DNA of 62,482 nucleotides from Alphaproteobacteria bacterium. Its GTDB lineage: Bacteria; Pseudomonadota; Alphaproteobacteria; Rhodobacterales; Rhodobacteraceae. This document shows, piece by piece, positions 9,075-42,060 of the stretch; within the stretch, counting starts at the first letter, position 1, and each line of letters begins with the position of its first letter. Under the pieces are notes generated by a model. It ran no database searches and was not told where the DNA came from. It worked only from the letters and a program-made list of their open reading frames with translations. The stretch lies in assembly GCA_030424645.1 (NCBI GenBank), contig JAUHWP010000005.1:1-62482 (forward strand). The letters run 5' to 3'. A program made the position numbers and the translations under genes.

Positions 9075-9086
9075 CACGGTCCGGGA

Positions 9087-12692: not shown

Positions 12693-12726
12693 CCTTCCGG
12701 TCTGATCTTGGGCGGGTGGCAGGATT

Positions 12727-13080: not shown

Positions 13081-13144
13081 GTCGTCGCCTTTCCTGTCAC
13101 CAGTCTCGGATATGATCCATCGCCTTAATGAGCCGGTTTCATGA

Positions 13145-13551: not shown

Positions 13552-13672
13552 ACATCAGACATTGATGAAAACCCGTCATGAATTGGGTGGACAATCCGGG
13601 CATTATGGCGTTCCGCGAAAATCAGTAATTCAGGTTTGTCACGAAACGCTTTAAGGTTCTGCCCAAGTCCCA

Positions 13673-13797: not shown

Positions 13798-13839
13798 CCG
13801 GCAAAAAACACCAACCGCGTGATACAACAGGAGACTGAC

Positions 13840-14235: not shown

Positions 14236-14255
14236 CCAACCCGACACCGGACGCG

Positions 14256-14936: not shown

Positions 14937-14971
14937 GTCTGGCCGCCCCTCACGCGGGGGCTGCACAAAAA

Positions 14972-15015
14972 AAATGACGCCGCCGGTATCTTGCCCGGCG
15001 GCGTCGCATCTTTTT
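14972..15015. terminator. Bidirectional rho-independent terminator
   Basis: A perfect 11-bp stem (GACGCCGCCGG at 14976 and CCGGCGGCGTC at 14995) is flanked by an A-run on the left and a T-run on the right, so it can end transcription from both the plus-strand remnant gene and the minus-strand tctA operon. Confidence 0.88.
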
Positions 15016-15046
15016 GACACGGGACACGGTCCTTCACCGCAAAGGA

Positions 15047-16546
15047 TCAGCCCCTGGCTTCGTCTTTCTTGAAAAACCGGCGTTTGATGATCGGTCCGAC
15101 GATCACCGCAAGCGTCAGAAGGACAAGGACCTGGCTGACGGTATTGGCGAACAGCACCGACCAGTCACCGCGCCCGATGCGCAATGCCAGGCGCAGGTTT
15201 TCTTCTGCGAACCCGCCAAGGATCAGGCCCAGAACCACCGGCGGCAACGGGAATTTCAGCTTGTCCATCAGATAGCCGATGGCCCCGAACCCGAGCATCA
15301 GATAGACATCGAACATGCGTCCGTTGATCGAGTATACCCCGATCAGCATCAGCACGATGATGACGGCCCCCAGAAGCGGGCGCGGCAGGTTCAGAAGCCG
15401 CGCGAAACTGTTGGTTGCCAACGACCCGCCCAGCAGAACCAGCAGGATGGCGCCGAACAGGAACTGCCACATGAAGCCAAAGACGACATCGGGGTTGTTG
15501 CGAAACAGCATCGGCCCCGGTTGCAGCCCGTGCACAAGCAGGCCACCCAGCATGACCGCCGCCACGGCGGTGCCGGGAATACCCAGCGTCAGGGCCGGGA
15601 TCAGCGCAGACGCGGTATCGGCATTGTTCGCGGTCTCGGATGCCGCAACGCCTTCCGGTTCGCCCTTGCCCCAGTCATCGGGGTTCTTCGAGCTGCGCCG
15701 CGCTTCGTTATACGACATGAACGCCGCCATGGAACCGCCCGCACCGGGCAGGATCCCGATCCAGATGCCGATCGCGGCCGAGCGCAGCCAGGTTTTCCAG
15801 AACCGCATCATGCGCGGCAAGGTCCGCCAGATCGGTTCGGTGCCCAGCCTGTTCGTGTCCGTATCGGTTTTCAGCGGCACTTCAAGCAGGTCGATCACCG
15901 GCGGCAGTGCATAAAGACCGACAAGCAGGATCACGATGCTGATCCCGTCCAGCAGTTCAAGAAACCCGAACGTGTAGCGGTCGCTGCCATAGATCGGGTC
16001 GGCCCCGACAACCGAGACAAACACACCGAAACAGGCACTCAGCAAGCCTTTGACCGGGTTGCCGCCCAACAGGAAGATGATCGAACACAGACCGAAAACC
16101 GCGACCCAGAACACCTCGGACGGTCCGAACAGAAGCGTCACCTTGGACAGGGGCGGCGCAAGCAGCATCAGGGCAAAGGCACTGGCGATGCCGCCGATCG
16201 ACGACGAGACCACCGCCACCTGCAGCGCATAACCCCCTTCGCCCCTTTGGGCCATGGGATAGCCGTCGAACGTGGTGGCAACAGCCGCCGGTGTGCCGGG
16301 AATACGCAGAAGCACCGACGGAATGGCCCCGCCATACATGGCCCCGTTATAGATCCCGGCCATAAGGCCAAGTGCCACAAGCGGATCAAGGCCAAAGGTG
16401 AAAGGAACCAGAACCGAGATCGCCATCGTGGCGCTGAGCCCGGGCATGGCCCCGACGACGATGCCCGCAATGACGCCGATGACAACGGCGGCGAAATTCG
16501 AAAAGCCCAGGACGTTGGGCAAGGCATGAAGAAGTTCAGTATACAT
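15047..16546 (-). CDS. tctA: Tripartite tricarboxylate transporter, large membrane subunit TctA
   Basis: The 499-residue protein has about 11-12 hydrophobic helices. TctA signatures are visible: GIVVGAMPGLSATMAISVLVP and its later near-repeat GILPGAGGSMAAFMSYNEARR, GIYNGAMYGGAIPSVLLRIPGTPAAVATT and ASETANNADTASALIPALTLGIPGTAVAA. With TctB and TctC it imports a carboxylate across the inner membrane using ion gradients. It is last in the minus-strand order dehydrogenase-RraA-TctC-TctB-TctA and ends at the bidirectional terminator. The neighbouring dehydrogenase suggests a hydroxycarboxylic acid rather than citrate. Confidence 0.94.
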   Translation of the reverse strand: MYTELLHALPNVLGFSNFAAVVIGVIAGIVVGAMPGLSATMAISVLVPFTFGLDPLVALGLMAGIYNGAMYGGAIPSVLLRIPGTPAAVATTFDGYPMAQRGEGGYALQVAVVSSSIGGIASAFALMLLAPPLSKVTLLFGPSEVFWVAVFGLCSIIFLLGGNPVKGLLSACFGVFVSVVGADPIYGSDRYTFGFLELLDGISIVILLVGLYALPPVIDLLEVPLKTDTDTNRLGTEPIWRTLPRMMRFWKTWLRSAAIGIWIGILPGAGGSMAAFMSYNEARRSSKNPDDWGKGEPEGVAASETANNADTASALIPALTLGIPGTAVAAVMLGGLLVHGLQPGPMLFRNNPDVVFGFMWQFLFGAILLVLLGGSLATNSFARLLNLPRPLLGAVIIVLMLIGVYSINGRMFDVYLMLGFGAIGYLMDKLKFPLPPVVLGLILGGFAEENLRLALRIGRGDWSVLFANTVSQVLVLLTLAVIVGPIIKRRFFKKDEARG

Positions 16547-16555
16547 GGGAAAACC

Positions 16556-17017
16556 TCAATTCTTCCAAAGGCGGCCGACGGGAAATTCCCGCGACATGCC
16601 CAGATCGAAAATCGTATAGATGGACACGAGCACGATCACCGTCGCGATGGCCAGGCCAAGCGGGTTGCGGTAGCCGAACACATAGGCGACCAGCGGCACG
16701 ACCGCCGCGGTGCTGACATAGAAACCGATGAAATCGACGCACAGCGCGTAGCCGAAGATCAGCAGGAAGGCGAGCAACACGCGCTTCGGCGCCGTCGTCA
16801 CCTGTTCGGGAATATCACCCGCACCCGCCTTGCGCTGATCGCGCACCAGCAAGGCGACGGAAAGCCCGATCAATCCGATCAGCATGGCCGCGGGCAGAAG
16901 CGCGGAAATCGGTTGAAGGGCGGCCGTCGGAACAAGCAAGCCCGCGGCGACCACGATGATACCGAGCGCGGTCAGGGTCTCGGGCCGATACAGGCGGTTT
17001 TTGTCGGATGCTGACAT
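16556..17017 (-). CDS. tctB: Tripartite tricarboxylate transporter, small membrane subunit TctB
   Basis: This 153-residue protein has four hydrophobic segments (for example LTALGIIVVAAGLLVPTAAL and LLAFLLIFGYALCVDFIGFY), as expected of the TctB subunit. The chosen ATG at 17017 gives MSASDKNRLYRPETL; an upstream extension would add a non-conserved leader. It is located 9 bp before tctA and 74 bp after tctC. Sequence conservation in this family is low, so position carries part of the call. Confidence 0.87.
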   Translation of the reverse strand: MSASDKNRLYRPETLTALGIIVVAAGLLVPTAALQPISALLPAAMLIGLIGLSVALLVRDQRKAGAGDIPEQVTTAPKRVLLAFLLIFGYALCVDFIGFYVSTAAVVPLVAYVFGYRNPLGLAIATVIVLVSIYTIFDLGMSREFPVGRLWKN

Positions 17018-22281: not shown

Positions 22282-23100
22282 ATGAGCATATTTCAGATCG
22301 GGATCGTTATCATAATCGCCTTGCTTGGTGCCGTTATCGGTGGCGTGGCGGTCTTTCAGAACACGGCGATCTACAGGTTTACGCCCGAACCCGGCACACC
22401 CGAAGATTACGGGCTGCCCGGCATGAAAGAGGTGACGTTTGCCAATGAGGACGGCGCGCAGCTCAGGGCGTGGATCGCCATGCCGGACGGCGATGCGCCG
22501 ATGGTGATCAGTTTCTATGGAAACTTCACGCAGTTCGGCCCCTCGGTTCAGCACCTGACGCCGCTGATGCAGTTGGGTTATGGCGTGGCGATGATGGAAT
22601 ATCGCGGTTCGGATGGCTCCGCCGGGTCAGTGGGCGAAGCAGGTTTCGCACAGGATGCCCGTGCGTTTTATGACCAGTTGGACAGGCTTGCGGGCGTGCC
22701 GATCCCGGCAGAGCGTCGCATCCTTCACGGGTTCAGCCTGGGCAGCAGCATCGCGACCCATCTGGCGGCCACCCGCGATGCGGCGGCGCTGGTGTTGGAA
22801 AGCAGTTTCGACAGCCTGTGCCGGTTCCAGACGCGCAGGCTGCGCGGCGTGCCCATGTGCCGCCTGATGTGGCGCGAACGTCATGATGTGCGCGACCGGA
22901 TCGTCGATGTGGACATGTCGATCCTGATCGCCCATGGCGCGCAAGACACCGCCATCCCCTTGCCCTGGGCGCAGGCCCTGTTTGACGCGGCCCCCGATCC
23001 GAAAACCTTCAAGGTCTATGATAAGGGGACGCATACCAGCTTGTTCGATCTCGGGCTGGCCGAGGATATCACCCGGTTCTACGACGCGCTCCCGGACTGA
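22282..23100 (+). CDS. Alpha/beta hydrolase, membrane-anchored
   Basis: The 272-residue protein begins with a single hydrophobic helix (FQIGIVIIIALLGAVIGGVA) that should anchor it in the inner membrane with the catalytic domain outside. The nucleophile elbow GFSLGSSIATHLAA gives the catalytic Ser; the Asp lies in AHGAQDTAIPLPWAQAL and the His in DKGTHTSLFD. It resembles the BEM46/FrsA-like hydrolases. It is convergent with the phosphopantetheinyl transferase gene and overlaps its end by 22 bp. A role in the adjacent NRPS pathway is possible but not shown. Confidence 0.87.
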   Translation: MSIFQIGIVIIIALLGAVIGGVAVFQNTAIYRFTPEPGTPEDYGLPGMKEVTFANEDGAQLRAWIAMPDGDAPMVISFYGNFTQFGPSVQHLTPLMQLGYGVAMMEYRGSDGSAGSVGEAGFAQDARAFYDQLDRLAGVPIPAERRILHGFSLGSSIATHLAATRDAAALVLESSFDSLCRFQTRRLRGVPMCRLMWRERHDVRDRIVDVDMSILIAHGAQDTAIPLPWAQALFDAAPDPKTFKVYDKGTHTSLFDLGLAEDITRFYDALPD

Positions 23101-23780
23101 GCGACATCCGCGGGATAGCACACGCAGCAGACCGCACCGGGGTCGGGCAGCGAGGTAAAGACCAGTCGGCTTGCCGGATCAGATGGCTGGTCAAACCGCA
23201 CGGGCCAGCCGTCATTCAGGCCAAGCGAAATGCTGTGCGGGGGCAGCGACATCCCCTCGCCCGTCAGTTTCATTCGTGCCTCTTTCGCCGTCCAGAACGC
23301 AAAGAAACGCTGCGCCCGGTGGGGATCGCCAGGGACTGACAGAGCGCGCTGTTCATCGGGGGTCATGCAGGCCTCGGCCAGCCCGGCGATGTTCAACTTC
23401 CGGTCAATATGTTCGACATCGACCCCGACCTGCCCGGTTTGCGACACGGCGATCACCAGCAGATCGCCGCTATGGGACAGGTTGAAGGCGGGACCGCCCC
23501 CGGCCAGCTGCGGCTTGCCCTGCGGACCATAGTCAAACGCCAGTCCCTGCGCGTCTTGGGCGCAGAGCCTGGCCAGCAGGCGACGCAGCAACCCACGGGC
23601 ACGCACGTAACGCGCCCGATCCCTGTCAAAGCGAAACCGGTTGGCCCGGACCGCCTCGTCCTCCGACAAGAGCGACCACGCCTCGTTAAGCGCCATGTCG
23701 CGATCATCGCCAATTCCAAAGGCGTGAACGGTGAGGTGGGATGGCAGCGCAGAGGTCACGGCAGTGGGGCCTGACTGCAT
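23079..23780 (-). CDS. Sfp-type 4'-phosphopantetheinyl transferase
   Basis: The enzyme transfers phosphopantetheine from CoA to the carrier domains of the upstream megasynthase. Signature motifs are visible: FNLSHSGDLLVIAVS, VGVDVEHIDRK and FFAFWTAKEARMKLTGEG, with the acidic residues that bind Mg2+. About 233 residues is normal for the Sfp class. The ATG at 23780 lies 10 bp after the NRPS-PKS stop; a GTG at 23789 overlaps even more closely. It is therefore almost certainly co-transcribed and dedicated to activation of the three carrier proteins in the synthase. Confidence 0.92.
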   Translation of the reverse strand: MQSGPTAVTSALPSHLTVHAFGIGDDRDMALNEAWSLLSEDEAVRANRFRFDRDRARYVRARGLLRRLLARLCAQDAQGLAFDYGPQGKPQLAGGGPAFNLSHSGDLLVIAVSQTGQVGVDVEHIDRKLNIAGLAEACMTPDEQRALSVPGDPHRAQRFFAFWTAKEARMKLTGEGMSLPPHSISLGLNDGWPVRFDQPSDPASRLVFTSLPDPGAVCCVCYPADVAQSGSAS

Positions 23781-23790
23781 CCTGCCCACC

Positions 23791-26700
23791 CTAATCCGCG
23801 TCCGATCCGCCCAGCCGGATTTCCTGTTCCATCATATCTGCCAACTGCCGGGCCGCGTCACCTTTCAGGATCTCCAGATGGTTCGCAGGATGGCTGGCCA
23901 GACGCAGTTTCCCGTTCACCAGCCTGGACCAGCCGAACCCCGGATCGGTTTGCCGCGCGACGGTGGCTGCAAACCCGTCGGCTTCGGTGATCACCAGCCA
24001 GGCGTCGTCGTCATAGGGCGTCGGATTATACCGGGCACTGGCGTCGACCCAGCGTTGGCTGAGCACCTCAAGCCGGAACGCATCGGGGTTCACCTTGTTG
24101 ACCAGCCGCACCACCTTGTCGGACATCAGCTTGCTGCGCAGCCGCGCCATAAGCCGGGTGCCGAACCCGCGTGCCCCCTGCGTGCGCAGAAGCTCCTGCT
24201 CCATTCTGAACCGTTCCTTGAAGGGAACGCTCAGGTCAACATGGAAGCCCGGCGCCTCGACGTCGATGATGCCAAGAAAGCCAACCTCGTCACCCTGCGC
24301 GCGCAGTTGCTTTGCGATCTCATACGCGACAAAGCCACCGCCGGAATAGCCTGCCAGAAGATAGGGGCCTTCGGGCTGGTGGCGCTTGATGTTGCGGATG
24401 TGATCGGCGGCCATCTCCTCGATGCTGTCATGCATCCTGTGGCCCATCACCCCGCGTGTCTGCAGGCCGATCAGGGGGCGGATTTCGCCAACGATCTGGC
24501 CCAGTTCAAACAGGTTGTTCACATTGCCGCCGACGCCTCCGGCGATGAAGATCGGAAGCCGCCCGTTGCCCGGCCCGGCATGGATCACCGCCGTGGTGTC
24601 CCAGGGATCGTCTTCGAATTCGCCCGCTTTCAGGACAGGGGCATCGGCCGATGTCACCTGCGTCGCCAGCTTGCGAATGGTCGGATAGGCCAGCAGCGTC
24701 GCAATCGGCAGGTCGACGCCGAATTCACGTTTCACCCGCGCGAACAGCTTAACCGCCATTAGGGAATGACCGCCAAGCGCGAAATAATCATCGTCGATGC
24801 CGATGTCATTCGATCCCAGAAGCTGCGTCCAGATCTTGTGCAGCTTCACCTCTTCCGGGGTTTGCGGGGTGCTGTCGCGCGGCTGATCGGCTGCGACATC
24901 GCCCTGCGACATCCCGGCCAGTGCGGTGCGGTCGGTCTTGCCGTTGGGGTTCAGCGGCATCGCCTCAAGGACCTGAATGCGCGCAGGCACCATGTAATCC
25001 GGCAGGGCCGTTGCCAAAGCGTTACGCAAGACCTGCGCATCAAGCTGTTGATTGTCCACCGCCGTCACATAGGCCAGAAGCAGGGTATCCCCACCCCCAT
25101 CCAGCGTGGTTGTCGCGACCGCTTCCGAGACACCGGGCTGGGCGGCAAGGGCCACTTCGACCTCGCCCAGCTCGACCCGTGATCCACGAATTTTGACCTG
25201 ATGGTCGGACCGCCCGTGATACATCAGGCGGCCATCCGGCAGGCAGCTGACCAAGTCACCCGTCGCGAAATAACGGGCATCCGGGTCATCCATGAACGGA
25301 TCCTTCAGGAACCGCTCGGCGGTCAGGTCGGGGCGATGCAGATAGCCTGCGGCCAGCACATCGCCACCGACATAAAGCTCGCCCACCGTGCCGGTGGGCA
25401 CCGGCTGCCCGGCCCCGTCAAGGATGTAAAGGCGCGCATTGTCAATCGGAGTGCCAATCGGGATCTCGTCGGTATCGGGGTCGCGCACCACCTCGCAGGT
25501 GACATCGGCGGCAACCTCGGACGATCCGTAAAGATTCACCAGCGTCACGTCCGGCGCCAGGGCCTGCACCTGTCGCGCAAGGCTGGCTGGCAGACGCTCG
25601 CCCGAACAGAACAGAAGCTTCAGCGACGGCACGGTTTCCTGCAAATCGGTCTGGGTCTCGGCCAGCGCTTTCAAAAGCGAGGGCACGACCAGAAGCCGCG
25701 TGACCTTGTGATCTGCCAGCGTGGTCAGGAACTTCGCGGGATCGCGGACCGTGTCGACCGGGATGATGACCTGCGGCACACCGGCCAGAAGCGGGCCAAA
25801 AATCTCCCACACGCTGTCGACGAACGAGATTGCGGTCTTCTGGCACATCACTTCACCCTGTTCGAAGGGGAAGGTGTTCCACATCCAGACGAAGCGGTTG
25901 ATCGTTGCCCGATGGGTGCCCATCACCCCCTTCGGATTGCCCGTCGAACCTGAGGTATAGCAGATATAGGCCGGTGACAGCGGGTCGATCTCGACCTGGG
26001 GCAAATCGGCAGCGGTGGTGTCAACATCCGCGGCCACATCTTCGACGATGAAGGCATCCGACAAGGCAAGCCGCGCGGCCAGATCCCGATTGGTGACGAC
26101 AAGCCGGGCCTGTGAATCTTCGACGATATACTGGATGCGCGCGACAGGGTTTGCCGGGTCCAGCGGCAGATAGGCCGCGCCCAGACGCATGGCCGCCAGC
26201 ATGGATGCGACCATGTCGGCCGACCGTTCAAGACACACGCCCACAACATCACCGACACCGACACCCGACCGGGCAAGTTCACCCGCGATCTGAACCGATC
26301 TTCGATCCAGTTCCCGGTAGCTGATCGTCGCACCGTTTTCGAATAGCGCCGGGGCATCTGCCGCCTTTTCCATCTGCTCGATAAAAAGACGCCCAAGATT
26401 GGCTGTTGCCGGATACTCCGTCACTTTTCCCCGCCACTGGGTAAGTAACATCGACCTCTGTCCCTCTGAAATAAGCGGCAGTTCTTTGACCGGAGTGACC
26501 GGGTTTTCTGCAATCGCCGCTAAGAACTCGTTAAACTGACTGTTATGCCTTTCAATTGTCGCGAGGTTAAACAAACCGGTATTGAAGGTCCATTCCGCTG
26601 TTATGGATTGGCGGTTATCCGTCACATTCAGGAAGATTTCGAATTGCTCGAACACCCTTGGGTTGGAAATGAACGCGGTCTTTGCACCCCCGAATTGCAT

Positions 26701-29700
26701 ATCACTCAGGTCAATGCCGTTGTCGATGTTGAAGATCACCGGCGTCAGCGGCACGCGGCTGGGATCTTGCGGCAGTTTCAGCGCGCGAACCAGTGCCCCG
26801 AAGCCGAAATGCTGGTGCTCGCTGGCATCCAGCAGCGCGGTTTGCGTGGCTTTCAACACATCGCTGAACGGCGCGGCAGGATCGACATAGGTATGCACCG
26901 GCATCAGGTTGACGCAATGGCCCACAAGGCTGTCCATCCCCCGCGACGCCTGCCCCGATGACGGAACGGCGACCGCGATGTGGTTGCTGCCGCTGATCCG
27001 CGCCAGATACGCGTTGAACGCGGCCAGCAACAGATTGACCAGCGTGGACCCCTGCCCCGCCGCCGTCTTGCGAAGCTTCGCAACCAGATCGGTGTCGAAA
27101 TTGGCATCGAACCGGTCCGCATCGACACTGCGCATGGCCGGGCGTGGGCGGTCGGTTGGCAGGTCAAGAACCGGCGGCGTATTGGGCTTGCGATAATCCT
27201 TGAACGCCTCAAGGAAATGATCCCGATCCGCTTTTGCCGCATCCGACATGGCCCAATCGGCCTCGGCCCGGGCATAGTCGATGATGCTGTGCGGCGCGGG
27301 CAGATCGGCCCGGCCACCCTCAAGCAGCGCCGTATAAATCTTGCCGATATCCCGAACGATCACGTCGATGGACCAGCCGTCGCAAACGATATGGTGGGCG
27401 GTGATCACAAGGTGATGATCATCGTCGGCCAGTTTCACCAGCGCCGCCCGGATCAGCGGCCCCTTGGACAGGTCAAAATGGGTCGTGACATGATCACGCA
27501 ACAACGCCTTCATCGCCGCGTCCCGATCCGCGTCGCTTTGGGCCGAGAAATCAATCACCTCGACTTCGGCGTCACCTGTCGGGGCAATCCACATCTCGGT
27601 CCCGTCATCCGAGAAGGTCGAGCGCAGTGCGTCGTGACGGTCGAAGGCCCGCTTCGTCGCCTGCACAAGCTCGGCGGTATCGACCGGGCCTTGCAGCTTC
27701 AGCGTGACACTTTCGTTATAGGCGGGCGACACTTCCGGGTGCATGACGACCGCGCCCCAGACCTCTCGCTGGGCCTCGGTCGTGGGCACGCAAAGCGGCT
27801 CCAGCGGTTTCGCCATGTCGGCGGCGATCTTTTCGGCCCCGTCAGGCAGGCTCAGCCGCGGCGGCACATGTGACAGGCGCGGGCCGTCATAGGCCCTGGC
27901 CTCGCGCCCGGTGATCAGACCCGATGCCCGCATTTCCAGCGCGGAGTCCTTGAACGCCTCGACGACATAATCAATGTCTTCATCGTTATGCGCGGCGGTC
28001 ATATAGGACGGGAACCCTTCCAGCAGGAACACGCCGCGATCACGCATATGCGCGCCCAGAAGGGCCCCGAATTTCTGATCTTCCCCGATGCGCAGATACA
28101 TCAGCGATCCGCAGTTCGGCATCTGGAACGGCATATCGTTTTCGACGAACCAGCGATCCACCCGGCCCGCCAGCCGGTCGCCCTTGGCGTTCACCGTTTT
28201 CCAGAACAGGTCGGGCTGGGATTTGAAAAAGCGCAGCATCTCGCGCAGCGATGCCATGGCCAGCGGATGACGCACGAAGGTGCCGGCGAAGAAGGTCACG
28301 GGCGCTTCGGGGAAGCTGTCGTCCCCGTATTGCCACTGGCCGCCGTCGAACGTGTCCATATACCGGGCCTTGCCCGACACGACACCCACGGGCATGCCAC
28401 CGCCCACCACCTTGCCATAAGTGACAAGATCGGCATCCACCCCGTAATAGGCCTGCGCCCCGCGCGGACCGAAGCGGAAGCCGGTCACCACCTCGTCAAA
28501 GATGAACAGCGACCCGGAGCGTTCGGTGATCCGGCGCACTTCGCGGATGAAATCGCGGGGGCGGAATTCGGGGCGGCGGCTTTGCACCGGCTCGACAATC
28601 ACGGCGGCCAGGCTATCGGCATTCTTGCGGATGTAATCCAGCGCCTGTGGCGTGCCATAGGGCAGAACGATCACGTTCTTCACCGCGTCGCGCGGAATGC
28701 CGGGGGCCAGCGGCAGGGTGCGCGGCCCATCCTTGCCATCAACCGCGCGCACCAGAACCTCGTCGAAATTGCCGTGATAATCACGCGCAAACATCACGAT
28801 CTTGTCGCGGTTCGTCACCGTGCGCGCCAGACGCATGGCGGCATAAACGGCCTCGGACCCGGTGCAGACAAAGCTTGCCCGGTCGTTGCCCGTCACCTCG
28901 CAGAACAGCTGCGCGGCCTCCATCGCCACAAGGCTTTGCGGCCCGACCTCGAACCCATCATCCAGTTGGTGGTGCAACGCCTCGACCACCTTGTCGGGCG
29001 AATGACCAAGGAAGCCCGGCCCGAACCCGTTCAGGATGTCGATATATTCGTTGCCGTCCACATCCATGAGGCGCGAGCCTTTGGATTTTACCGTCACGAT
29101 CTGATAGACGATTTCCTTCCACAGCCGGTTGAACCCCGACGCGGTGCGCGGATCGGCATGGGTGGCGCGGTGCTCAGCGGTCAGCGCCTTGGACTTCGCG
29201 GTCTTGGCGGTGAACCGGTCCACCAGCGCGTCAATATGGGCGCGTTGGTCTGGCGTAAGTTCCTCGGTCTCGCGTTCGATCTTCGTCAGCGGGGCCGATG
29301 ACGGCGAGGCCTGCGCCTCGTCCGTTTCGATCTTGGTCAGTTCGGCCGGGGCCGCCTTTTCAGCCGCAGCGGCGCCGGGCAAGGTGCCGTACGCCTCGAT
29401 ATGGTCGGCCAGTGCATCCACATTGCGGAACCCGTCGATCAACTGGCGCAAGGCCACGTCAACGCCAAACTGTTCGCTCAGCTCGCGAATGGCCTGGGTC
29501 AGCAGCAGGCTGTCGAACCCAAGCTCAAGGAAGGACGCGTCACCGTCGATCTCGTCCGGTTCCAGTCCTGACAATTCCGACAGCATCTCGCGCAGGGCCT
29601 CGCCCGCGGTCAGTTGCGGGGCGCCTGCCTCCTCGGTGATCTCGACCGTGGCCGAGGTGTTTTCCAACGCGGCATAGTCCACGGTGACATCCACCGGTTC

Positions 29701-32700
29701 CACCCAGAAGCGTTTGCGCTGGAACGGATATGTCGGCAGACCCGGCAGGCGGCGGGCGGCAGGGCGGTCATTGTCGATGCGCGACCAGTCCACCGGATAG
29801 CCATTGGCCCACAATTCACCGAAGGCCGACAGAAGACTGTCATGCGAATTGGCATTCTCGGCCTGCGCGGCGGGCAAGGAGGCAATCGCAGGCTGCGCTT
29901 TCTTCCGGTCCGGGTTCTGCCCTGACAGGGTGGCCATGGTGCGGCCCGGCCCGACCTCAAGGAAGATATGCCGGTTCTCGGCCCACAGAAGTTGGATCGC
30001 GTCATAGAACCGGACGGGGCGGCGCATGTGCATGGCCCAGTAATCGGGATCCGTCGCCTCGTCATCCGTCATCCAGTCCCCGGTCACAGTGGACAGGATC
30101 GGAATGCGTGGGGCTTTCAGGGTCAGCCCAGCCACGGCCTTGCGGAACGGTTCGACCGCCGGGTCCATCATCTGCGAATGGAACGCGTGGCTTGTGTGCA
30201 GGCGCGAGGCGACGATCTCGTCTTTCTCAAGCCGCTTCAACAGATCTTGCGCGGCCTCCTCGGGTCCCGCCACCACACAGGCCTTGGCCCCGTTCACGGC
30301 GGCCAGATCAATGCCGTTGCCAAGATAGGGCGCCACCTCGTCCTCGCTGGCCCGAACCGAGATCATGACGCCTTGCGGCAGGTCCGCCATCAGCCGCCCG
30401 CGCAGGGCAATCAGCTTCAGCGCATCGGGCAGGTCAATCACGCCCGCAATCGTCGCGGCGGCAAATTCCCCGATGGAGTGGCCGACCATGACATCGGGCG
30501 TGATGCCCCAATGCCGCCATTGCTGCGCCAGCGCATAGCCGATCGAGAAGATTGCGGGCTGCGCCAGCGCGGTGTTCTTCAACTTCTCGGTCGCGCAGTC
30601 ATGTTCGCTGTCCGGCGCATGGATCACATCCAGCAGGTTCAGGCCAAGATCGTCCTCAAGCAGTTGGGCGCACAGGCCAAGGGCTTCGCGGAACACCGGT
30701 TCCTGCGCGTAAAGATCACGCGCCATACCGGCGTGCTGCGCCCCCTGCCCCGGAAACAGAAAAGCCAGCGCATCGCGTTGACCGGCGGCGATGCCTTTGC
30801 CGGTGAACCCGTCCGCCGCCGTTGCCAGATCGGACAGGTTGCGCGCCACAAGGGCGGCACGCTGGTCGAACTGCGTGCGCCCGCTGCGCAGCGTCGCAAT
30901 CACCCGGTCGGGATCGGCATCGGGGTTGGCCTTTGCCCAGTCCCCCAGATTGGCAACCGCCGCCTTCAACGCATCCGGGGACGAGGCGGAAATCGGGAAC
31001 ACGCGCGGCGCGTCGTCTTTTGCAGGCGTGGCGGGGTCTTCGACCTGCGGGGCTTCCTCCAACACCATATGGATGTTGGTGCCACCCACGCCGAAGGCCG
31101 ACACACCGGCACGGCGCGGGGCATCTGTGCCGGTCCAGTCCAACCGCTCGGCCACCGGGAAGAAGGCCGAATTGTCGAAGTCGATACGCGGGTTGGGCTT
31201 CTTGTAGTGCAACAGCGGAGGGATCACGCCGTGCTTCAAGGTCAGCGTGGTCTTGATCAAACCCGTTACGCCTGCCGCAATATCCAGATGGCCCAGATTG
31301 GTCTTCACGCTGCCAAGCGCGCAGAAGCCCTTGTCTTCCGTGCTGGCGGAAAAGGCGGTTTGCAGGGCGGTGAACTCGATCGGATCGCCAAGGGGCGTGG
31401 CGGTGCCATGCGCCTCGATATACCCGATCGAGCGTGCATCGACGCCCGCCGCGACATGGGCGGCCCGGATCACGTCGGTCTGCGCCTTGATCGACGGGGC
31501 GGCATAGCCCGCCTTGTCATGCCCGTCATTGTTGATCGCGTAACCCTTGATCACCGCAAGGATGTTGTCGCCGTCTGCTTCTGCATCCTCAAGCCGGCGC
31601 AAAACAACGATCCCGGCTCCGTCGCCAAAGACAGTGCCCGTGGCGTCAGCGTCGAAGGTCCGGCAATGCCCGTCCGCCGAGGCCATGCCATCGGGCAGAT
31701 ACATATAGGGCCGCTTGGTCGGGAAGGTGATCGACACGCCACCGGCCAGCGCCATATCCGCGTCACCCCGCAAAAGCGCCTGACAGGCTTGCGCCACCGC
31801 GACCAGAGAGGTCGAGCAGGCACATTGCACCGTCATCGCAGGCCCGCGAAGGCCCAGCTTATAGGCGATGCGCGTTGCGATGAAATCCTTGTCATTGCCA
31901 AACAGCGTGGCGAAATCCTTGACCGGATAGCCCATCGCCAGCTCGCGCGAGGCACCGGGCGCCGACAGAAGGTTATTCAGCAGGTAGGAGTTCTGGCTCG
32001 ACCCCGCAAAGACCCCGATACGCCCATCAAACCGGGCCGGATCATGGCCCGCGTTTTCCAACGCGGTCTGGGCAACCTCAAGCAGGATGCGGTGCTGGGG
32101 ATCCAGACGCTCAGCCTCTTTCGGGGGGATGCCAAAATGGCGGGCATCGAACATGTCGGGTTCGACCATCGCGCCGCGCGCCCGCACATAAGGCGCGTCC
32201 GGGTCGTCTTTCGACGGATCGACATCCAGCTCGTCCTCGGTAAACTGCGAAATCAGCTCGCGCCCATCCATAAGCGCCTGCCACATCTCTTCGGCACTGC
32301 TGGCACCGGGATAGCGTCCGGCCAACCCGACAATTGCAATCGGCCCGCTGTTGGACATGTTGCGCACCTTTGCCTCGCGCGGGGCGGGCTGGGCTTTGGT
32401 CACGGGATCGGACAGATGCGCCGACAGGGTTGTGGCGGTCGAATGCAGGAAGAAATCCGAGATCGGGAAATCGCGTTTCAGCTTGTCCTGCAAACGCTCA
32501 TGCACCCGCGCGATATGCAGGGACGAGGCACCGAGATCGAAGAAATTTGTGTTGGGATCGACATCCGCAACTTCAAGCACGTCCGACAAGGTGCTGAGAA
32601 CAAGCGTCTTCGTCGATGCGTCGCTGTCACGTTTCGCGACCTTCTTCTGCACCTTCGGCAGCGCCCGCTGCTCCAGCGCCTTGCGATCCACCTTGCCGTT

Positions 32701-34134
32701 GTCATTGATCGGCAGCGCGTCCAGCGCCACCAGATGCGCGGGCACGGCGTAATCCGGCAGTTGCATCTTCAGATGCGCCCGCAGCGCATCCACGTCGCAG
32801 TCGTCATCGGCCACATAATACCCGACCAGCGTCTTGTCGGCCCCATCCGCCCCAGCACGCGCGATGGCGGCGGCGTGACGGATACCGTCGAACTGCTCCA
32901 ACGCGGTTTCGATGCCGCCCAGTTCCACCCGGAAACCACGCACCTTCACCTGCTTGTCGATCCGGCCCAGATAGCGAATGACCCCTTTCTTGTCGCGCTC
33001 AACCAGATCGCCGGTGCGATAGAGCCGCACAGACTTATCCCACGGCGCGGGCACGAACACCTCGTTGGTCAGGTCGTCCTGCCCCAGATATCCCAGCGCA
33101 AGGCCCAGCCCGGCGGCGCAAAGCTCGCCCGGTGTGCCATCGTCGACGGGCCGCAAATTCCCATCGACAACAAAGACTTCTGTGCCATTGATCGGCTTGC
33201 CGATGGGCAACGGCTTGCCCGCTTTCGCCTGTGCCTTGGTGATCTTGTGGCAACAGGTGAACGTGGTGTTTTCGGTCGGGCCATAGCCGTTGATCACGGT
33301 CAGTTTCGGGCAGGCGGCCTGCACCTTGGCCACCTTGTCCGGTGACACCACATCGCCCCCGGTCAGAAGCTGGCGCAGGGGTTTGAAATCCTCGGGCCGT
33401 TCATCCGCCATGGCGTGAAACAGGCCAGCGGTCAGCCACATACTGGTGATCTTCTGGTCGCGGATGATCGCCCCCAACCCGCGCAACGATGTGTCGTCGC
33501 TGTCGGGGATCACCAAAGTGCCCCCGTTCAGAAGCGCCCCCCAGATTTCCAGCGTCGAGGCATCGAACGCGATGGGAGAGTTCTGCAAAATCCGCTCGTC
33601 AGTGCCGAGTTTCATGAAGTTCTGGTCACGCACCAGCCTGACAATCCCGCGATGCGGTACCACGACACCCTTCGGCACGCCGGTCGTGCCGGACGTGTAC
33701 ATGACATAGGCCACGGCTTCGGGATCGTCGTTTAGTTCAGGCGGTTCGGACGGGTCCGTCCCGGCGGCCGTCGCAGACACTTTTGGAATCGACATGTCTT
33801 TCAGGGCGGGAATATCGCCCATGATCGCCGCCAACCCGCTGTCCTGTGCGATCATGCGGATGCGATCGTCCGAATAGTAATCCGGCAAGGGCACATAGCC
33901 CGCACCTGCCTTGAGAATTGCAAGCGCCGAAACGATGGTATCAACCGAACGCTGACCGCCCATGCCCACAAGGCTACCGGCCTCGACGCCGGATTTTGCA
34001 AGCTGTGCAGCCAGCGCATCGGTGCGCGCGTCAAGCTCGCGATAGCTAAGCGCAACGGACCCCTGGCTCAGCGCGACATGATCACCATGCCGGTCGGCCA
34101 CGGTACGGAAAAGGGAAACGACGGAATATGGCAT
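23791..34134 (-). CDS. Hybrid NRPS-PKS megasynthase, A-PCP-KS-AT-ACP-AMT-C-A-PCP-TE
   Basis: A 3447-residue synthase. Domains and key residues: adenylation A1 (1-495; A10 Lys471), PCP1 (505-570; Ser538), ketosynthase (597-1027; Cys773, His909, His949), acyltransferase (1124-1430; GHSIGEF Ser1220 and HAFH at 1316, which favours malonyl-CoA), ACP (1511-1585; Ser1542), class III PLP aminotransferase (1668-2080; Lys1908), condensation (2116-2550; HHIVCDG), A2 (2575-3070; Lys3066), PCP2 (3092-3160; Ser3124) and thioesterase (3190-3440; GYSGGG Ser3264, Asp3291, His3419). All catalytic residues are present, so it looks functional. There is no ketoreductase; the aminotransferase should turn the beta-keto group into an amine, as in mycosubtilin synthase. 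Hand-read specificity codes are DALWLGGTFK (valine-like) for A1 and VDWLFSLADK (beta-alanine-like) for A2. The start has no strong ribosome binding site. The PPTase gene follows directly. Confidence 0.95.
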   Translation of the reverse strand: MPYSVVSLFRTVADRHGDHVALSQGSVALSYRELDARTDALAAQLAKSGVEAGSLVGMGGQRSVDTIVSALAILKAGAGYVPLPDYYSDDRIRMIAQDSGLAAIMGDIPALKDMSIPKVSATAAGTDPSEPPELNDDPEAVAYVMYTSGTTGVPKGVVVPHRGIVRLVRDQNFMKLGTDERILQNSPIAFDASTLEIWGALLNGGTLVIPDSDDTSLRGLGAIIRDQKITSMWLTAGLFHAMADERPEDFKPLRQLLTGGDVVSPDKVAKVQAACPKLTVINGYGPTENTTFTCCHKITKAQAKAGKPLPIGKPINGTEVFVVDGNLRPVDDGTPGELCAAGLGLALGYLGQDDLTNEVFVPAPWDKSVRLYRTGDLVERDKKGVIRYLGRIDKQVKVRGFRVELGGIETALEQFDGIRHAAAIARAGADGADKTLVGYYVADDDCDVDALRAHLKMQLPDYAVPAHLVALDALPINDNGKVDRKALEQRALPKVQKKVAKRDSDASTKTLVLSTLSDVLEVADVDPNTNFFDLGASSLHIARVHERLQDKLKRDFPISDFFLHSTATTLSAHLSDPVTKAQPAPREAKVRNMSNSGPIAIVGLAGRYPGASSAEEMWQALMDGRELISQFTEDELDVDPSKDDPDAPYVRARGAMVEPDMFDARHFGIPPKEAERLDPQHRILLEVAQTALENAGHDPARFDGRIGVFAGSSQNSYLLNNLLSAPGASRELAMGYPVKDFATLFGNDKDFIATRIAYKLGLRGPAMTVQCACSTSLVAVAQACQALLRGDADMALAGGVSITFPTKRPYMYLPDGMASADGHCRTFDADATGTVFGDGAGIVVLRRLEDAEADGDNILAVIKGYAINNDGHDKAGYAAPSIKAQTDVIRAAHVAAGVDARSIGYIEAHGTATPLGDPIEFTALQTAFSASTEDKGFCALGSVKTNLGHLDIAAGVTGLIKTTLTLKHGVIPPLLHYKKPNPRIDFDNSAFFPVAERLDWTGTDAPRRAGVSAFGVGGTNIHMVLEEAPQVEDPATPAKDDAPRVFPISASSPDALKAAVANLGDWAKANPDADPDRVIATLRSGRTQFDQRAALVARNLSDLATAADGFTGKGIAAGQRDALAFLFPGQGAQHAGMARDLYAQEPVFREALGLCAQLLEDDLGLNLLDVIHAPDSEHDCATEKLKNTALAQPAIFSIGYALAQQWRHWGITPDVMVGHSIGEFAAATIAGVIDLPDALKLIALRGRLMADLPQGVMISVRASEDEVAPYLGNGIDLAAVNGAKACVVAGPEEAAQDLLKRLEKDEIVASRLHTSHAFHSQMMDPAVEPFRKAVAGLTLKAPRIPILSTVTGDWMTDDEATDPDYWAMHMRRPVRFYDAIQLLWAENRHIFLEVGPGRTMATLSGQNPDRKKAQPAIASLPAAQAENANSHDSLLSAFGELWANGYPVDWSRIDNDRPAARRLPGLPTYPFQRKRFWVEPVDVTVDYAALENTSATVEITEEAGAPQLTAGEALREMLSELSGLEPDEIDGDASFLELGFDSLLLTQAIRELSEQFGVDVALRQLIDGFRNVDALADHIEAYGTLPGAAAAEKAAPAELTKIETDEAQASPSSAPLTKIERETEELTPDQRAHIDALVDRFTAKTAKSKALTAEHRATHADPRTASGFNRLWKEIVYQIVTVKSKGSRLMDVDGNEYIDILNGFGPGFLGHSPDKVVEALHHQLDDGFEVGPQSLVAMEAAQLFCEVTGNDRASFVCTGSEAVYAAMRLARTVTNRDKIVMFARDYHGNFDEVLVRAVDGKDGPRTLPLAPGIPRDAVKNVIVLPYGTPQALDYIRKNADSLAAVIVEPVQSRRPEFRPRDFIREVRRITERSGSLFIFDEVVTGFRFGPRGAQAYYGVDADLVTYGKVVGGGMPVGVVSGKARYMDTFDGGQWQYGDDSFPEAPVTFFAGTFVRHPLAMASLREMLRFFKSQPDLFWKTVNAKGDRLAGRVDRWFVENDMPFQMPNCGSLMYLRIGEDQKFGALLGAHMRDRGVFLLEGFPSYMTAAHNDEDIDYVVEAFKDSALEMRASGLITGREARAYDGPRLSHVPPRLSLPDGAEKIAADMAKPLEPLCVPTTEAQREVWGAVVMHPEVSPAYNESVTLKLQGPVDTAELVQATKRAFDRHDALRSTFSDDGTEMWIAPTGDAEVEVIDFSAQSDADRDAAMKALLRDHVTTHFDLSKGPLIRAALVKLADDDHHLVITAHHIVCDGWSIDVIVRDIGKIYTALLEGGRADLPAPHSIIDYARAEADWAMSDAAKADRDHFLEAFKDYRKPNTPPVLDLPTDRPRPAMRSVDADRFDANFDTDLVAKLRKTAAGQGSTLVNLLLAAFNAYLARISGSNHIAVAVPSSGQASRGMDSLVGHCVNLMPVHTYVDPAAPFSDVLKATQTALLDASEHQHFGFGALVRALKLPQDPSRVPLTPVIFNIDNGIDLSDMQFGGAKTAFISNPRVFEQFEIFLNVTDNRQSITAEWTFNTGLFNLATIERHNSQFNEFLAAIAENPVTPVKELPLISEGQRSMLLTQWRGKVTEYPATANLGRLFIEQMEKAADAPALFENGATISYRELDRRSVQIAGELARSGVGVGDVVGVCLERSADMVASMLAAMRLGAAYLPLDPANPVARIQYIVEDSQARLVVTNRDLAARLALSDAFIVEDVAADVDTTAADLPQVEIDPLSPAYICYTSGSTGNPKGVMGTHRATINRFVWMWNTFPFEQGEVMCQKTAISFVDSVWEIFGPLLAGVPQVIIPVDTVRDPAKFLTTLADHKVTRLLVVPSLLKALAETQTDLQETVPSLKLLFCSGERLPASLARQVQALAPDVTLVNLYGSSEVAADVTCEVVRDPDTDEIPIGTPIDNARLYILDGAGQPVPTGTVGELYVGGDVLAAGYLHRPDLTAERFLKDPFMDDPDARYFATGDLVSCLPDGRLMYHGRSDHQVKIRGSRVELGEVEVALAAQPGVSEAVATTTLDGGGDTLLLAYVTAVDNQQLDAQVLRNALATALPDYMVPARIQVLEAMPLNPNGKTDRTALAGMSQGDVAADQPRDSTPQTPEEVKLHKIWTQLLGSNDIGIDDDYFALGGHSLMAVKLFARVKREFGVDLPIATLLAYPTIRKLATQVTSADAPVLKAGEFEDDPWDTTAVIHAGPGNGRLPIFIAGGVGGNVNNLFELGQIVGEIRPLIGLQTRGVMGHRMHDSIEEMAADHIRNIKRHQPEGPYLLAGYSGGGFVAYEIAKQLRAQGDEVGFLGIIDVEAPGFHVDLSVPFKERFRMEQELLRTQGARGFGTRLMARLRSKLMSDKVVRLVNKVNPDAFRLEVLSQRWVDASARYNPTPYDDDAWLVITEADGFAATVARQTDPGFGWSRLVNGKLRLASHPANHLEILKGDAARQLADMMEQEIRLGGSDAD

Positions 34135-36952: not shown

Positions 36953-37522
36953 ATGAAAAAACTCCTAGCAACCACAGCTGTTGTGGGCATGATGGCGACC
37001 GCCGCAAATGCCGCAACCGTTGTTGATCTGACAACCGGGGGCGACGTGACATCGCTGGGCCAGATGGGGTCGTTTGACACCGTTGGCGCCCAGGGTTCGA
37101 TTGATCCGTGGCGTTCGGGTGGCGGTGCCGACTATCTGACACAGACATCTGGTGGTCTGGGCGTCAGTGGCTTCGGCGATTCCAGTTCGCAACTGGACGG
37201 GTTTATTGACGAGGCTATCACGTTCACCTTCGACTACGCGGTGCGCCTGGTGTCTGTCACGTTCTCGGGTCTTGGTCGGTTCGAAGACGCTGACATCTAT
37301 GTCAACGGCACGAAAGTCGCGAACGAATCCAGTGCCAACCCCTACTATTTCGGCAACGTGATCGCATCGTCGTTCACCATCGGCGCCGATGGAACGCTCG
37401 ACAATTTCCGCATCAAGGAATTCAAAGTCGCTCCGGTTCCGCTGCCTGCCGCAGGCTTCCTGCTGCTTGGCGGTCTGGCCGGTCTGGGCGCATTGTCGCG
37501 CAAGCGTAAGAAAACCGCCTGA
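36953..37522 (+). CDS. VPLPA-CTERM sorting-domain protein
   Basis: This 189-residue exported protein begins with a signal peptide (MKKLLATTAVVGMMATAANA) and ends with the tripartite sorting signal: VPLPA, a hydrophobic helix (AGFLLLGGLAGLGALS) and a basic tail RKRKKTA. That is the VPLPA-CTERM class recognised by exosortase D in Rhodobacterales. The middle contains a predicted beta-rich domain with no named family. The gene has a good site AAGGGTAAGG before the ATG, an AT-rich 218-bp upstream region and its own terminator, so it is likely strongly expressed and controlled separately. It is the visible substrate of the exosortase encoded at 40371-41972. Confidence 0.93.
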   Translation: MKKLLATTAVVGMMATAANAATVVDLTTGGDVTSLGQMGSFDTVGAQGSIDPWRSGGGADYLTQTSGGLGVSGFGDSSSQLDGFIDEAITFTFDYAVRLVSVTFSGLGRFEDADIYVNGTKVANESSANPYYFGNVIASSFTIGADGTLDNFRIKEFKVAPVPLPAAGFLLLGGLAGLGALSRKRKKTA

Positions 37523-37544
37523 TCGACAAGATCATGCAACTGGG

Positions 37545-37573
37545 AAAAGGGCCGGTTTCACGGCCCTTTTTTC
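37545..37573 (+). terminator. Rho-independent terminator after the VPLPA-CTERM gene
   Basis: The stem AAGGGCCG-GTTTCA-CGGCCCTT runs into TTTTTTCTT, 23 bp after the stop codon. Confidence 0.9.
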
Positions 37574-37602
37574 TTGCCGCGTGGCCTGCTTGTGGTCCCG
37601 CC

Positions 37603-37630
37603 CTGAAATCGCTTTAATATATGCTATAAT
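37603..37630 (+). promoter_or_regulatory. Candidate sigma-70 promoter of the TPR lipoprotein gene
   Basis: A perfect minus-10 TATAAT at 37625-37630 lies 16 bp after CTGAAA at 37603-37608. It sits 50 bp upstream of the start codon and after the preceding terminator. Confidence 0.5.
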
Positions 37631-37679
37631 ATACCTGACGCATTTCACCCGCCGAACGGCCCTTTATTATCACGAGACG

Positions 37680-40136
37680 ATGACACCCATGACCAACCGC
37701 ATCCTTTCCGGCATCCTTCTGGCCTGTGCCCTGACTGTTCTGACAAGCTGCAAGTCGTCGGAAGAACGCGCCGAAGAGCATTTCAAAGCGGCGCTGGAAC
37801 ATATGGAAAACGACGACGTGGCCCGCGCAACGGTCGAATTTCAGAACGTGTTCAGCCGCAACGGCAAACATCGCGATGCCCGCGCGACATACGCGAAAAT
37901 GCGGCGCGACCACGGGGACATCGCGGAAGCCTATAGCCAGTATCTTCGGCTTGTCGAACAATATCCCGATGATCTGGAAGGCCGAAAGGCGCTGTCGGAA
38001 ATGGCCTTCGACAATGGCAACTGGGATGAGTTGCGCCGCCACGGCGAATATCTGGCCAAGCTTGCACCTGACGACCTGACCGCGCGGATTTCCCTTGTGG
38101 CGCTGGCCTATCGCGATGCGGTGATCGGCGGCAACGAAACCGCCCGCACAGAAGCGCAGAAGGCCGCGCTTGAATTGCTTGAAGAAGATCCCTCGCATCT
38201 TGGTCTGCGCCGGCTGGTTGCAGACGATTACATCCGGCTGAAAGACTGGAAACGCGCCTTGCAGGCGGTGGACGGCGCTTTGGAATATGCCCCGGAATCG
38301 ACCGAGTTCCTGCAAAAGCGGTTGGGTATCCTGTATGCTACGAACGATACCGACGCGATAGAACAGCAACTGTCCGCGATGGTCGAAAAGTTCCCGGACA
38401 ACCAGCAAATGATGGCCGCCCTTGTGCAATGGCACATTTCGCGCGGGAACACCGATCAGGCCGAAACTCTGCTGCGCGACCGGGTCGATCCGCAGGACGA
38501 AAACCCCGAAGCCGGCGCGACATTGATCCGCTTTCTGTCCGAATTCCGCGGCAGCGACGCCGCTCGGGCCGAACTGGACAAGCTGATCGCCACCGGCACA
38601 GCCCATCAGGCCCTGTATCGGTCGCTGCGCGCCTCGATCAATTTCGACACTGGCGCCCGGCAAGACGCGATTGCAGAAATGCAGGAGATTCTGGACGGTG
38701 CCGAACCCTCTGCCCAGACGGACAATGTGAAGGTCGGTCTGGCGCGTATGCTGGATGTCACCGGCAACCCCGTTGGCGCCCGCGCCCTGATCGAGGAAGT
38801 GCTGGAACGCGATGCCACCCATACCGAGGCGCTGAAACGCCGCGCCGACTGGCTGATCGCCGACGACCAGACCGGCGATGCGATCATGACCCTGCGCTCG
38901 GCCCTGTCCGACACCCCCGACGACCCCGAGATCATGACCCTGCTGGCCCGCGCGCACGAACGCGATGGCAACAAGGAGCTGATGGCCGAAATGCTCGCGC
39001 TGGCCGTCGAAAACTCGAACAACGGGGCCGACGAAAGCCTGCGTTATGCCCGCCACCTGATCAGCGAAGGCAAACAGCTTCCGGCCGAGGATGCCCTGTT
39101 GGGCGCTTTGCGCCTCCAACCCAACAACCCGCAGATCCTGTCGGCGCTGGGTGGGTTGTATATCGACATGCAGGACTGGGGCCGCACCGAACATGTGGCC
39201 CGGACCCTGCGCGGGCTGGACACCGATCAGACCACCGAGCTTGCCAATAACCTGACCGCACGCCGTCTGGCCGCCCAGAACCGCGAGACCGAGCTGAACG
39301 CGTTTCTGGAATCTGTCTCGGCGGGGTCCGAAGGTGTCGATACCGCCGATATCGTCATCATCCGCCGATATCTGGATCAGGACGACACCGAACAGGCGCT
39401 CGATCATGTCGACAAGCTCTTGGCGGTTGCGCCCGACACGCCGATGCTGCATTTCGTGCGCGCCTCTATTTTGGCGCAAAGCGGACGGGTGTCCGAGGCG
39501 GAAACCATCTTCGGCGACCTGCTGGAAGAAGACGATCAGCGCACCGAGGTCTGGACCGCCCTTTACCGGCTGCAACGCAGCAGCGGCAACCGGGACGCGG
39601 CGCTTGCAACGCTGGACACGGCCCGCGCCACCGTGCCGGACAGCATCCAACTGGGTTGGCTTGAAGCTGGCGAGCTGGAGCTTGCCGGTGATATCGACGG
39701 GGCCATCGCCGTTTACGAAGACCTCTATGCCAGGGACAGCGGCAACCAGATCGTCGCCAATAACCTTGCCAGCCTGCTGGCCGATCACCGCGCGGATACG
39801 GAAAGCCTAGAACGCGCCTATACCGTCGCCCGCCGTCTGCGCGGCACCGATGTGGCACCCTTTCAGGACACTTATGGCTGGATTGCCTATCGCCTGCAAA
39901 ACTACGACGAGGCGCTGGCCCATCTGGAGCCGGCAGCGGACGAGATGGAAGGCAACGTGACCGTGCAATATCATCTGGCGATGGCCTATGCCGCCACCTA
40001 TCGCACCGACGCGGCCCTTGCCCAGTTTGAAAAGGTCAAGGCGATGCTTGACCCGGCCAACCCGCCCGCCTTTGCCGCCACGATCGACGACGAGATTGCG
40101 CGCCTGACCGAGGCAAAAGCCGGTGACGCCAATTGA
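37680..40136 (+). CDS. prsT: PrsT-like TPR-repeat lipoprotein of exosortase systems
   Basis: The 818-residue protein has a lipoprotein signal (ILLACALTVLTSC, lipobox Cys24) and then tetratricopeptide repeats throughout, beginning AEEHFKAALEHMENDDVARA and ending with AYAATYRTDAALAQFEKVKA. Length, lipobox and repeats match the TPR lipoprotein (PrsT) that accompanies exosortase loci and is thought to help assemble or export the exopolysaccharide. Starts at 37680 and 37689 are both possible; the first is used here. The exosortase gene follows after 234 bp. Confidence 0.9.
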   Translation: MTPMTNRILSGILLACALTVLTSCKSSEERAEEHFKAALEHMENDDVARATVEFQNVFSRNGKHRDARATYAKMRRDHGDIAEAYSQYLRLVEQYPDDLEGRKALSEMAFDNGNWDELRRHGEYLAKLAPDDLTARISLVALAYRDAVIGGNETARTEAQKAALELLEEDPSHLGLRRLVADDYIRLKDWKRALQAVDGALEYAPESTEFLQKRLGILYATNDTDAIEQQLSAMVEKFPDNQQMMAALVQWHISRGNTDQAETLLRDRVDPQDENPEAGATLIRFLSEFRGSDAARAELDKLIATGTAHQALYRSLRASINFDTGARQDAIAEMQEILDGAEPSAQTDNVKVGLARMLDVTGNPVGARALIEEVLERDATHTEALKRRADWLIADDQTGDAIMTLRSALSDTPDDPEIMTLLARAHERDGNKELMAEMLALAVENSNNGADESLRYARHLISEGKQLPAEDALLGALRLQPNNPQILSALGGLYIDMQDWGRTEHVARTLRGLDTDQTTELANNLTARRLAAQNRETELNAFLESVSAGSEGVDTADIVIIRRYLDQDDTEQALDHVDKLLAVAPDTPMLHFVRASILAQSGRVSEAETIFGDLLEEDDQRTEVWTALYRLQRSSGNRDAALATLDTARATVPDSIQLGWLEAGELELAGDIDGAIAVYEDLYARDSGNQIVANNLASLLADHRADTESLERAYTVARRLRGTDVAPFQDTYGWIAYRLQNYDEALAHLEPAADEMEGNVTVQYHLAMAYAATYRTDAALAQFEKVKAMLDPANPPAFAATIDDEIARLTEAKAGDAN

Positions 40137-40370: not shown

Positions 40371-41972
40371 ATGTCCGTAACCAGTGACAAACCGCAACAA
40401 CCCGCGCGCACGCTGCCCGACCTGAACGTGGCCGGTGTGTTCTGGTTCGTCGCGCTGATCCTCAGCGCCCTGCCGGTGTTCTGGATCGGGTTTCAGTCCC
40501 TGGCGGCGGCGTGGTCGACGCCGGAATACAGCCACGGCCCGCTGATCCCCATCATCTCGCTTTACCTGTTCCTGCGCGAATTGCGCAAAGCCCCCCTGCC
40601 CGCGCTGACAGTGCATGATCGCTGGCCCGGCATTGTCGTGATCGTCGTGGCGCTGGCGATTGCCATTCTGGGCAACCTGACACGCATCCCCGACATCGTC
40701 ACCTATGCGATGATCATCTGGCTGGGCGGCGTGGTGCTGGTGGTCTTTGGCTGGAAACGCGGGCGCACCCATCAATTGCCGGTGGTGCATCTGGTGTTCA
40801 TGCTGCCGCTGCCGCAATTCCTGTATTGGAAGCTGACAATCCTTTTGCAATACCTGTCGTCGGAACTGGGCGTCTGGTTCGTCAGCCTTGCCGGGGTGTC
40901 GGTCTTTCTGGAAGGCAACATCATCGACCTTGGCGTCTATAAGCTTCAGGTCGCCGAGGCCTGTTCCGGCCTGCGCTATCTGTTCCCGATCCTCAGCTTC
41001 TCATCCCTGTTCGCGATCCTGTATCGCGGCCCGATCTGGCACAAGGTGGTTTTGCTGGTCTCGGCGGCACCGCTGACCGTCCTCATGAACTCGGTTCGGA
41101 TCGGCATCATCGGCATTCTGGTGGACCGGCAAGGGATCGAAGCGGCCGAAGGTTTTCTGCATTTCTTCGAAGGCTGGGTGATCTTCGTCATCTGCATCCT
41201 GATCCTGTTTTTGATGGCGATCATCCTGCAACGCATGACCCGCGATCCCAAACCGCTGAGCGAGGCGATTGATCTGGACACCGACGGCTTCGGCCCGGTC
41301 GCCGGGCGTTTTCTGGGCATTCAATCCTCGATGGCGATGATCGTGGCAACCTTTCTGACCATGGCGGTGTCGGTTGGCTGGGTCAGCCTGAAAGGCGGCG
41401 ACGCTATCAAGGTCGAGCGTGAGCCGTTCACCCTGTTCCCCCGTCAGTTCGGCGACTGGTCCGGCACCACATCCCGTCTTGATCCCGAAATCGAAGAGGT
41501 GCTGGGCGCCACCGATTATCTGAGCACGACCTATGCCGCGCCGGGGTCGCCCGACTATATCAACATGTTCGTGGCCTTCTATGACAAGCAGACCGAAGGC
41601 AGCGGCATCCATTCGCCCGAGGTCTGCCTGCCCGTCGGCGGGTGGGAGGTGTTCAGCCTTGAACCGGTCGAGGTCAACCCCAACGTCCCCGCCTATGGCA
41701 GCTTCCACGTCAACCGTTCGGTCATTCAGAAGGGGCTGAGCAAGCAGCTGGTCTATTACTGGTTCGAACAGCGCGGCAAACGCCAGACCAACGATTTCAC
41801 CGCCAAGATCGGCGTGGTGATCGACAGCCTGACCATGGGGCGCACCGATGGGGCGCTGGTGCGCTATGTCACCCCGATCCGCCCGGATGAAACCGAAGCG
41901 GATGCCGATGCAAGGCTGATTGACTTTATGACCCAAAGCCTGCCAAGACTGCCAAGGTTCGTACCGATGTGA
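40371..41972 (+). CDS. xrtD: Exosortase (VPLPA-CTERM type, XrtD) fused to EpsI domain
   Basis: This 533-residue membrane transpeptidase should cut VPLPA-CTERM proteins and attach them to a surface polymer. The N-terminal ~310 residues hold about 8-9 helices and the exosortase triad: Cys198 ([12 protein letters not shown]), Arg243 (NSVRIGIIG) and His264 (FLHFFEGW). The C-terminal ~200 residues are an EpsI-type domain ([20 protein letters not shown], then [16 protein letters not shown]). The fused XrtD-EpsI form is typical of the VPLPA-CTERM system. CAAGGGACAGG supplies the ribosome binding site. Candidate substrate and TPR partner are upstream, and polysaccharide genes follow. Confidence 0.92.
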
Positions 41973-42060
41973 CCCGACATGACCTCACCCCTTGTCGTTC
42001 CCACGACAATCACGACCTGTCGGCCCCGCCACTGACTGGCCCCCGTATAAGAGTCCCACC

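Follow-up and report, generated by a model that had tools for sequence, protein, structure and literature searches.

The DNA analysed here is a stretch of 62,482 nucleotides (the window; contig JAUHWP010000005.1) from a marine bacterium of the Rhodobacteraceae family of Alphaproteobacteria. Its reverse strand carries a single uninterrupted gene of 3447 codons (23791 to 34134) encoding a hybrid nonribosomal peptide synthetase-polyketide synthase (NRPS-PKS) in one chain of 3447 amino acids. Domain and motif matches, all on this strand, begin with a starter adenylation domain (A1; residues 1-500, 32635 to 34134), a peptidyl carrier protein (PCP1; 505-580, 32395 to 32622), a ketosynthase (KS; 595-1030, 31045 to 32352), an acyltransferase with an HAFH motif (AT; 1115-1460, 29755 to 30792) and an acyl carrier protein (ACP; 1505-1580, 29395 to 29622). 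These are followed by a class III pyridoxal phosphate (PLP) aminotransferase (AMT; 1670-2090, 27865 to 29127), a condensation domain (C; 2110-2570, 26425 to 27807), a second adenylation domain (A2; 2575-3075, 24910 to 26412), a second carrier domain (PCP2; 3090-3160, 24655 to 24867) and a thioesterase (TE; 3175-3447, 23794 to 24612) in which Ser, Asp and His are present. Immediately downstream on the same strand, a domain match identifies a 4ˊ-phosphopantetheinyl transferase (PPTase; 23079 to 23789).

The chain order A-PCP-KS-AT-ACP-AMT-C-A-PCP-TE given by Pfam agrees with an original prediction made from the sequence, which described a single chain that lacks a ketoreductase, and no such domain appears in the Pfam listing. 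The beta-keto group should thus be free for the AMT. That prediction also held that the catalytic residues are present, and every motif sought was indeed found. The same motifs are retained in relatives wherever their sequences cover them, except for the AT motif of the relative G196. A dN/dS of 0.10 between the window line and its closest relative indicates purifying selection. In addition, the entire assembly, which is 91.62% complete, contains one condensation domain, so the line looks self-contained, as had been proposed.

The AMT domain was predicted to be of the mycosubtilin type, and its nearest solved structures are 6kfm and 6kfu, both of mycosubtilin synthase A (MycA). The alignment spans 414 residues and matches the PLP lysine and aspartate, and stand-alone glutamate-semialdehyde aminomutases are far lower as relatives. 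The fusion of this class III enzyme downstream of a PKS ACP places the window line among the AMT-containing NRPS-PKS hybrids. In a tree of 58 AMT rows, in which L030/L082 and L059/L073 represent the same or nearly the same locus, the window domain falls in a clade of eight rows with support of 100/100. This clade excludes BamA, which clusters with Paenibacillus, and support for the deepest division between the two sides is low (58/49).

Codes read from the sequence are DALWLGGTFK for A1, which we take to be valine-like, and VDWLFSLADK for A2, which is presumably beta-alanine-like and whose fourth position is uncertain. The HAFH motif of the AT favours malonyl-CoA. On this basis, A1 would load a valine-like starter onto PCP1, and the KS would carry out one round of extension with malonate selected by the AT. 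The AMT would then act on the ACP-bound beta-ketoacyl thioester and install an amine at the beta position; the resulting 3,4-diamino acyl chain may be condensed by the C domain with the residue selected by A2. Finally, the TE would free the product through hydrolysis or ring closure, and the adjoining PPTase presumably activates the carrier domains. The mycosubtilin-type AMT, the two codes and the HAFH motif together lead us to expect 3,4-diamino-5-methylhexanoyl-beta-alanine or a lactam thereof. The linear product from valine and beta-alanine would be C10H21N3O3, with a hand-computed [M+H]+ of about 232.166, compared with about 214.155 for the lactam.

We therefore consider that the window probably encodes a hybrid line that is complete in itself and assembles a beta-amino dipeptide from an amino acid, one malonate unit and a second amino acid. 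Several points weigh against this reading. The substrates assigned to the two codes are tentative, and a literature search on six code strings returned no paper confirming the code-to-substrate assignments. The codes as read appear to fit the valine and beta-alanine that the original prediction named. The AT specificity depends on a single motif, another NRPS could be missing because the assembly is incomplete, and early cyclisation of a beta-keto or diamino intermediate could give a tetramic acid or gamma-lactam.

The layout itself is not new. The prediction had presented it as standing alone, and we rejected this uniqueness because the same ten domains occur at eight other loci (L001, L002, L003, L004, L005, L057, L064 and L066), of which L003 is cut at its 5ˊ end and L005 bears an additional N-terminal A-like stretch. 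Thus, the domain anatomy survives, and the proposed chemistry is reasonable, but the claim of a singular architecture does not hold. We define type I lines by the ten-domain chain and an AMT within the one clade, and the window line has both. A PPTase match lies near the line in all eight other loci. The chain of L066 (G196; 6600 to 16970) keeps the ten-domain layout, but its AMT lies outside the clade and its AT motif is HINVAAHS instead of HTSHAFHS, possibly reflecting a separate origin or a different extender.

A split version of the system (type II) is common in Rhodobacteraceae and Rhizobiaceae. Like the window line, it has the order A-PCP-KS-AT-ACP-AMT-C-A-PCP, here spread over one to three proteins, and a PPTase is present in 14 of the 18 fetched stretches. 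Unlike the window line, all 18 parsed loci have a separate C-PCP protein, which carries the TE match in 14, and the A2 code is of a DILQ- type, presumably glycine-like, in 17 of 18. The AMTs of these lines form their own clade (18 of 18). We rejected the assignment of the window to this type since its own TE ends the chain, its assembly has one C domain and its AMT lies outside the type II clade.

Comparison among type I lines reveals a conserved core with exchanged ends. Relative to Aliiroseovarius M344, the KS-to-AMT block of the window line is 91% identical, whereas identity is 50% for C, 38% for A2 and 43% for PCP2-TE. Identity starts to fall around residue 2120, where the AMT meets the C domain, and the A2 code is presumably beta-alanine-like in the window and valine-like in M344. 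Across these same terminal parts M344 is closer to a line from a Ruegeria metagenome-assembled genome (MAG), with 64% for C, 62% for A2 and 55% for PCP2-TE. A second case comes from Amylibacter ulvae and A. kogurei (L002 and L004), where 40-residue windows are mostly 88-100% identical but A1 residues 161-400 reach only 55-82%, DNA identity is 56-79% across bases 525 to 1200, and the A1 code differs. The KS-AT-ACP-AMT beta-amination core is the better-kept part, and the starter and terminal parts are swapped among strains. The terminal module of M344 and the A-domain core of Amylibacter look like natural exchanges, for which recombination with another NRPS would be the simplest cause. Evolution seems to have made use of joints at these two places in the family, around an A-domain core in one case and, in the other, at the AMT-C junction, where an entire terminal module changes.

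Two further readings concern the destination of the product and are compatible with the assembly-line reading. It is quite possible, although short of an even chance, that the product is a free small molecule of the secondary-metabolite type, such as a signal, chelator or enzyme inhibitor, and that polysaccharide neighbours are incidental. The TE within the chain is consistent with release. Type I loci that lack polysaccharide genes form a compact unit of line, PPTase and S-adenosylmethionine-dependent methyltransferase, often with a small membrane protein, and further KS/AT or A-domain frames adjoin the line in L003, L005 and L064. However, no exporter was recognised in those frames of the window near the line that were scanned, and the split sister clade is tightly associated with polysaccharide genes.

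That association points to a somewhat unlikely alternative fate, whereby the released dipeptide or its thioester becomes an amide substituent on an amino sugar of a surface polysaccharide, perhaps likewise in the sister clade. Of the type II genomes, 10 of 11 (against 0.38 expected) carry a PF02397 sugar transferase within 25 kb of the line, as do 2 of 2 near kin. None of 11 other AMT lines does, but this zero is soft, since at least two of those loci sit on contigs of no more than 15.8 and 36.8 kb. Of 48 distinct genomes in which an AMT was matched, 28 entered the test; those omitted were twelve genomes of the phylum set, the five class genomes whose matches were weakest, and three family genomes on contigs below 6 kb. 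Its p-values overstate the case, both because of kinship among the genomes and because the association had been spotted, on largely the same loci, before it was tested; the test is post hoc and not independent. Deposited annotation also places polysaccharide genes around each of five named split lines. Reference neighbours were drawn from the window and five tested loci, with self-matches not counted. Among 33 control stretches of uneven length from genomes of the same set, two without a readable base, none had two or more reference neighbours and two had one DegT match.

For type I lines the evidence is divided. Those of M344 and A. kogurei sit among polysaccharide genes, and the window line adjoins an exosortase/polysaccharide block whose 47-55 kb portion is homologous to that of M344. 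This portion includes a DegT-type aminotransferase (47217 to 48389, reverse strand; 50% identical to the M344 polysaccharide block), a FemAB/GNAT protein (48382 to 49512, reverse; 75%), a family 2 glycosyltransferase (49636 to 50616, forward; 64%), a FemAB/GNAT protein pair (50145 to 52843, forward; mechanically called frames 50145-51806 and 51680-52843), a polysaccharide deacetylase (52836 to 53510, forward) and an O-antigen ligase/polymerase-like protein (53535 to 55103, reverse). The FemAB/GNAT proteins, deacetylase and aminotransferase could make and acylate amino sugars. Against this fate, PF02397 has no match anywhere on the window contig or in the G196 genome (64% complete), and none of four type I lines, the window included, passes the 25 kb test, the A. 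kogurei transferase being at 35.6 kb. The fetched flanks of G144, G196, HKCCE2091 and the Ruegeria MAG contain no polysaccharide reference gene save the methyltransferase and membrane-protein neighbours of the line, and a Variovorax RA8 relative has no polysaccharide genes alongside. Moreover, the in-chain TE would free the product, and co-residence may be hitch-hiking because plasmids of Rhodobacteraceae often carry polysaccharide clusters.

Between the megasynthase and the 47-55 kb portion lie, on the forward strand, a VPLPA-CTERM protein (36953 to 37522) that neighbours its matching exosortase XrtD (40371 to 41972), a PrsT-like TPR protein below the NCBIfam cut-off (37389 to 40136), a polysaccharide flippase (41992 to 43467) that gives the assembly's sole PF13440 match with E ≤ 1e-10, and a right-handed beta-helix protein (44396 to 47143). 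Beyond it, two cytochrome d1-domain proteins, a NapC/ethylbenzene-dehydrogenase-like protein and a tetrapyrrole methylase (55364 to 62388) resemble a heme d1/nitrite reductase-type cluster.

The last alternative supposes an AMT that is inactive or is skipped, so that the line yields a tetramic acid or beta-keto amide. It draws on the ready cyclisation of aminoacyl-malonyl thioesters but is improbable, given that the PLP residues are intact and the AMT is among the best-conserved domains (80-99% identity in seven of eight relatives and 46% in G196).

We thus favour an assembly line for variable beta-amino dipeptides that perhaps feeds polysaccharide decoration. A broader proposal, which we regard as doubtful, is that Alphaproteobacteria attach strain-variable NRPS-PKS beta-amino dipeptides to surface polysaccharides and vary the coat by exchanging A-domain cores and terminal modules, with the window line as a single-protein form. 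The most interesting lead is the polysaccharide link shown by the split sister lines and by part of the type I clade, which the original prediction missed; if functional, it would connect modular assembly lines with bacterial coat chemistry. Literature searches over titles and abstract openings, several of them narrow, found no paper that connects a hybrid of this kind with polysaccharide loci, which is weak evidence of absence. If the proposed chemistry is correct, a one-protein line small enough to be expressed whole would also provide a direct route to 3,4-diamino acyl dipeptides.

Among known systems, the synthases of mycosubtilin, iturin and bacillomycin (MycA, BamA) share with the window line an ACP-linked class III AMT within a PKS-NRPS hybrid. 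Their assembly starts with a fatty acid and yields a lipopeptide ring, whereas the window line, a single protein, opens with an A domain. An iturin-family lipopeptide synthase was rejected because the starter is an NRPS-type A domain instead of a fatty-acyl ligase and the AMT does not group with BamA. Two reports describe uncharacterised hybrids in Roseibaca (PMC10584327) and Paracoccus (PMC8273931). In the microsclerodermin line, as described in PMC6163206, an AMT likewise yields a beta-amine beside an amino-acid unit, on the beta carbon of the polyketide, but that hybrid is a large multi-gene system in which a monooxygenase domain reportedly supplies the keto group and whose product is a cyclic hexapeptide. 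A further comparison is the Salinisphaera shabanensis hybrid F7QBN5, tabulated in 2013 as C-A-CP-KS-AT-CP-PLP1-C-A-CP with the predicted product Gly-Mal-Nrp (Milano et al., PMC3870968, Table 2). As listed there, it has an additional N-terminal C domain, no TE, a predicted glycine start and a product that is predicted only, but it shares with the window line the core A-CP-KS-AT-CP-PLP1-C-A-CP.
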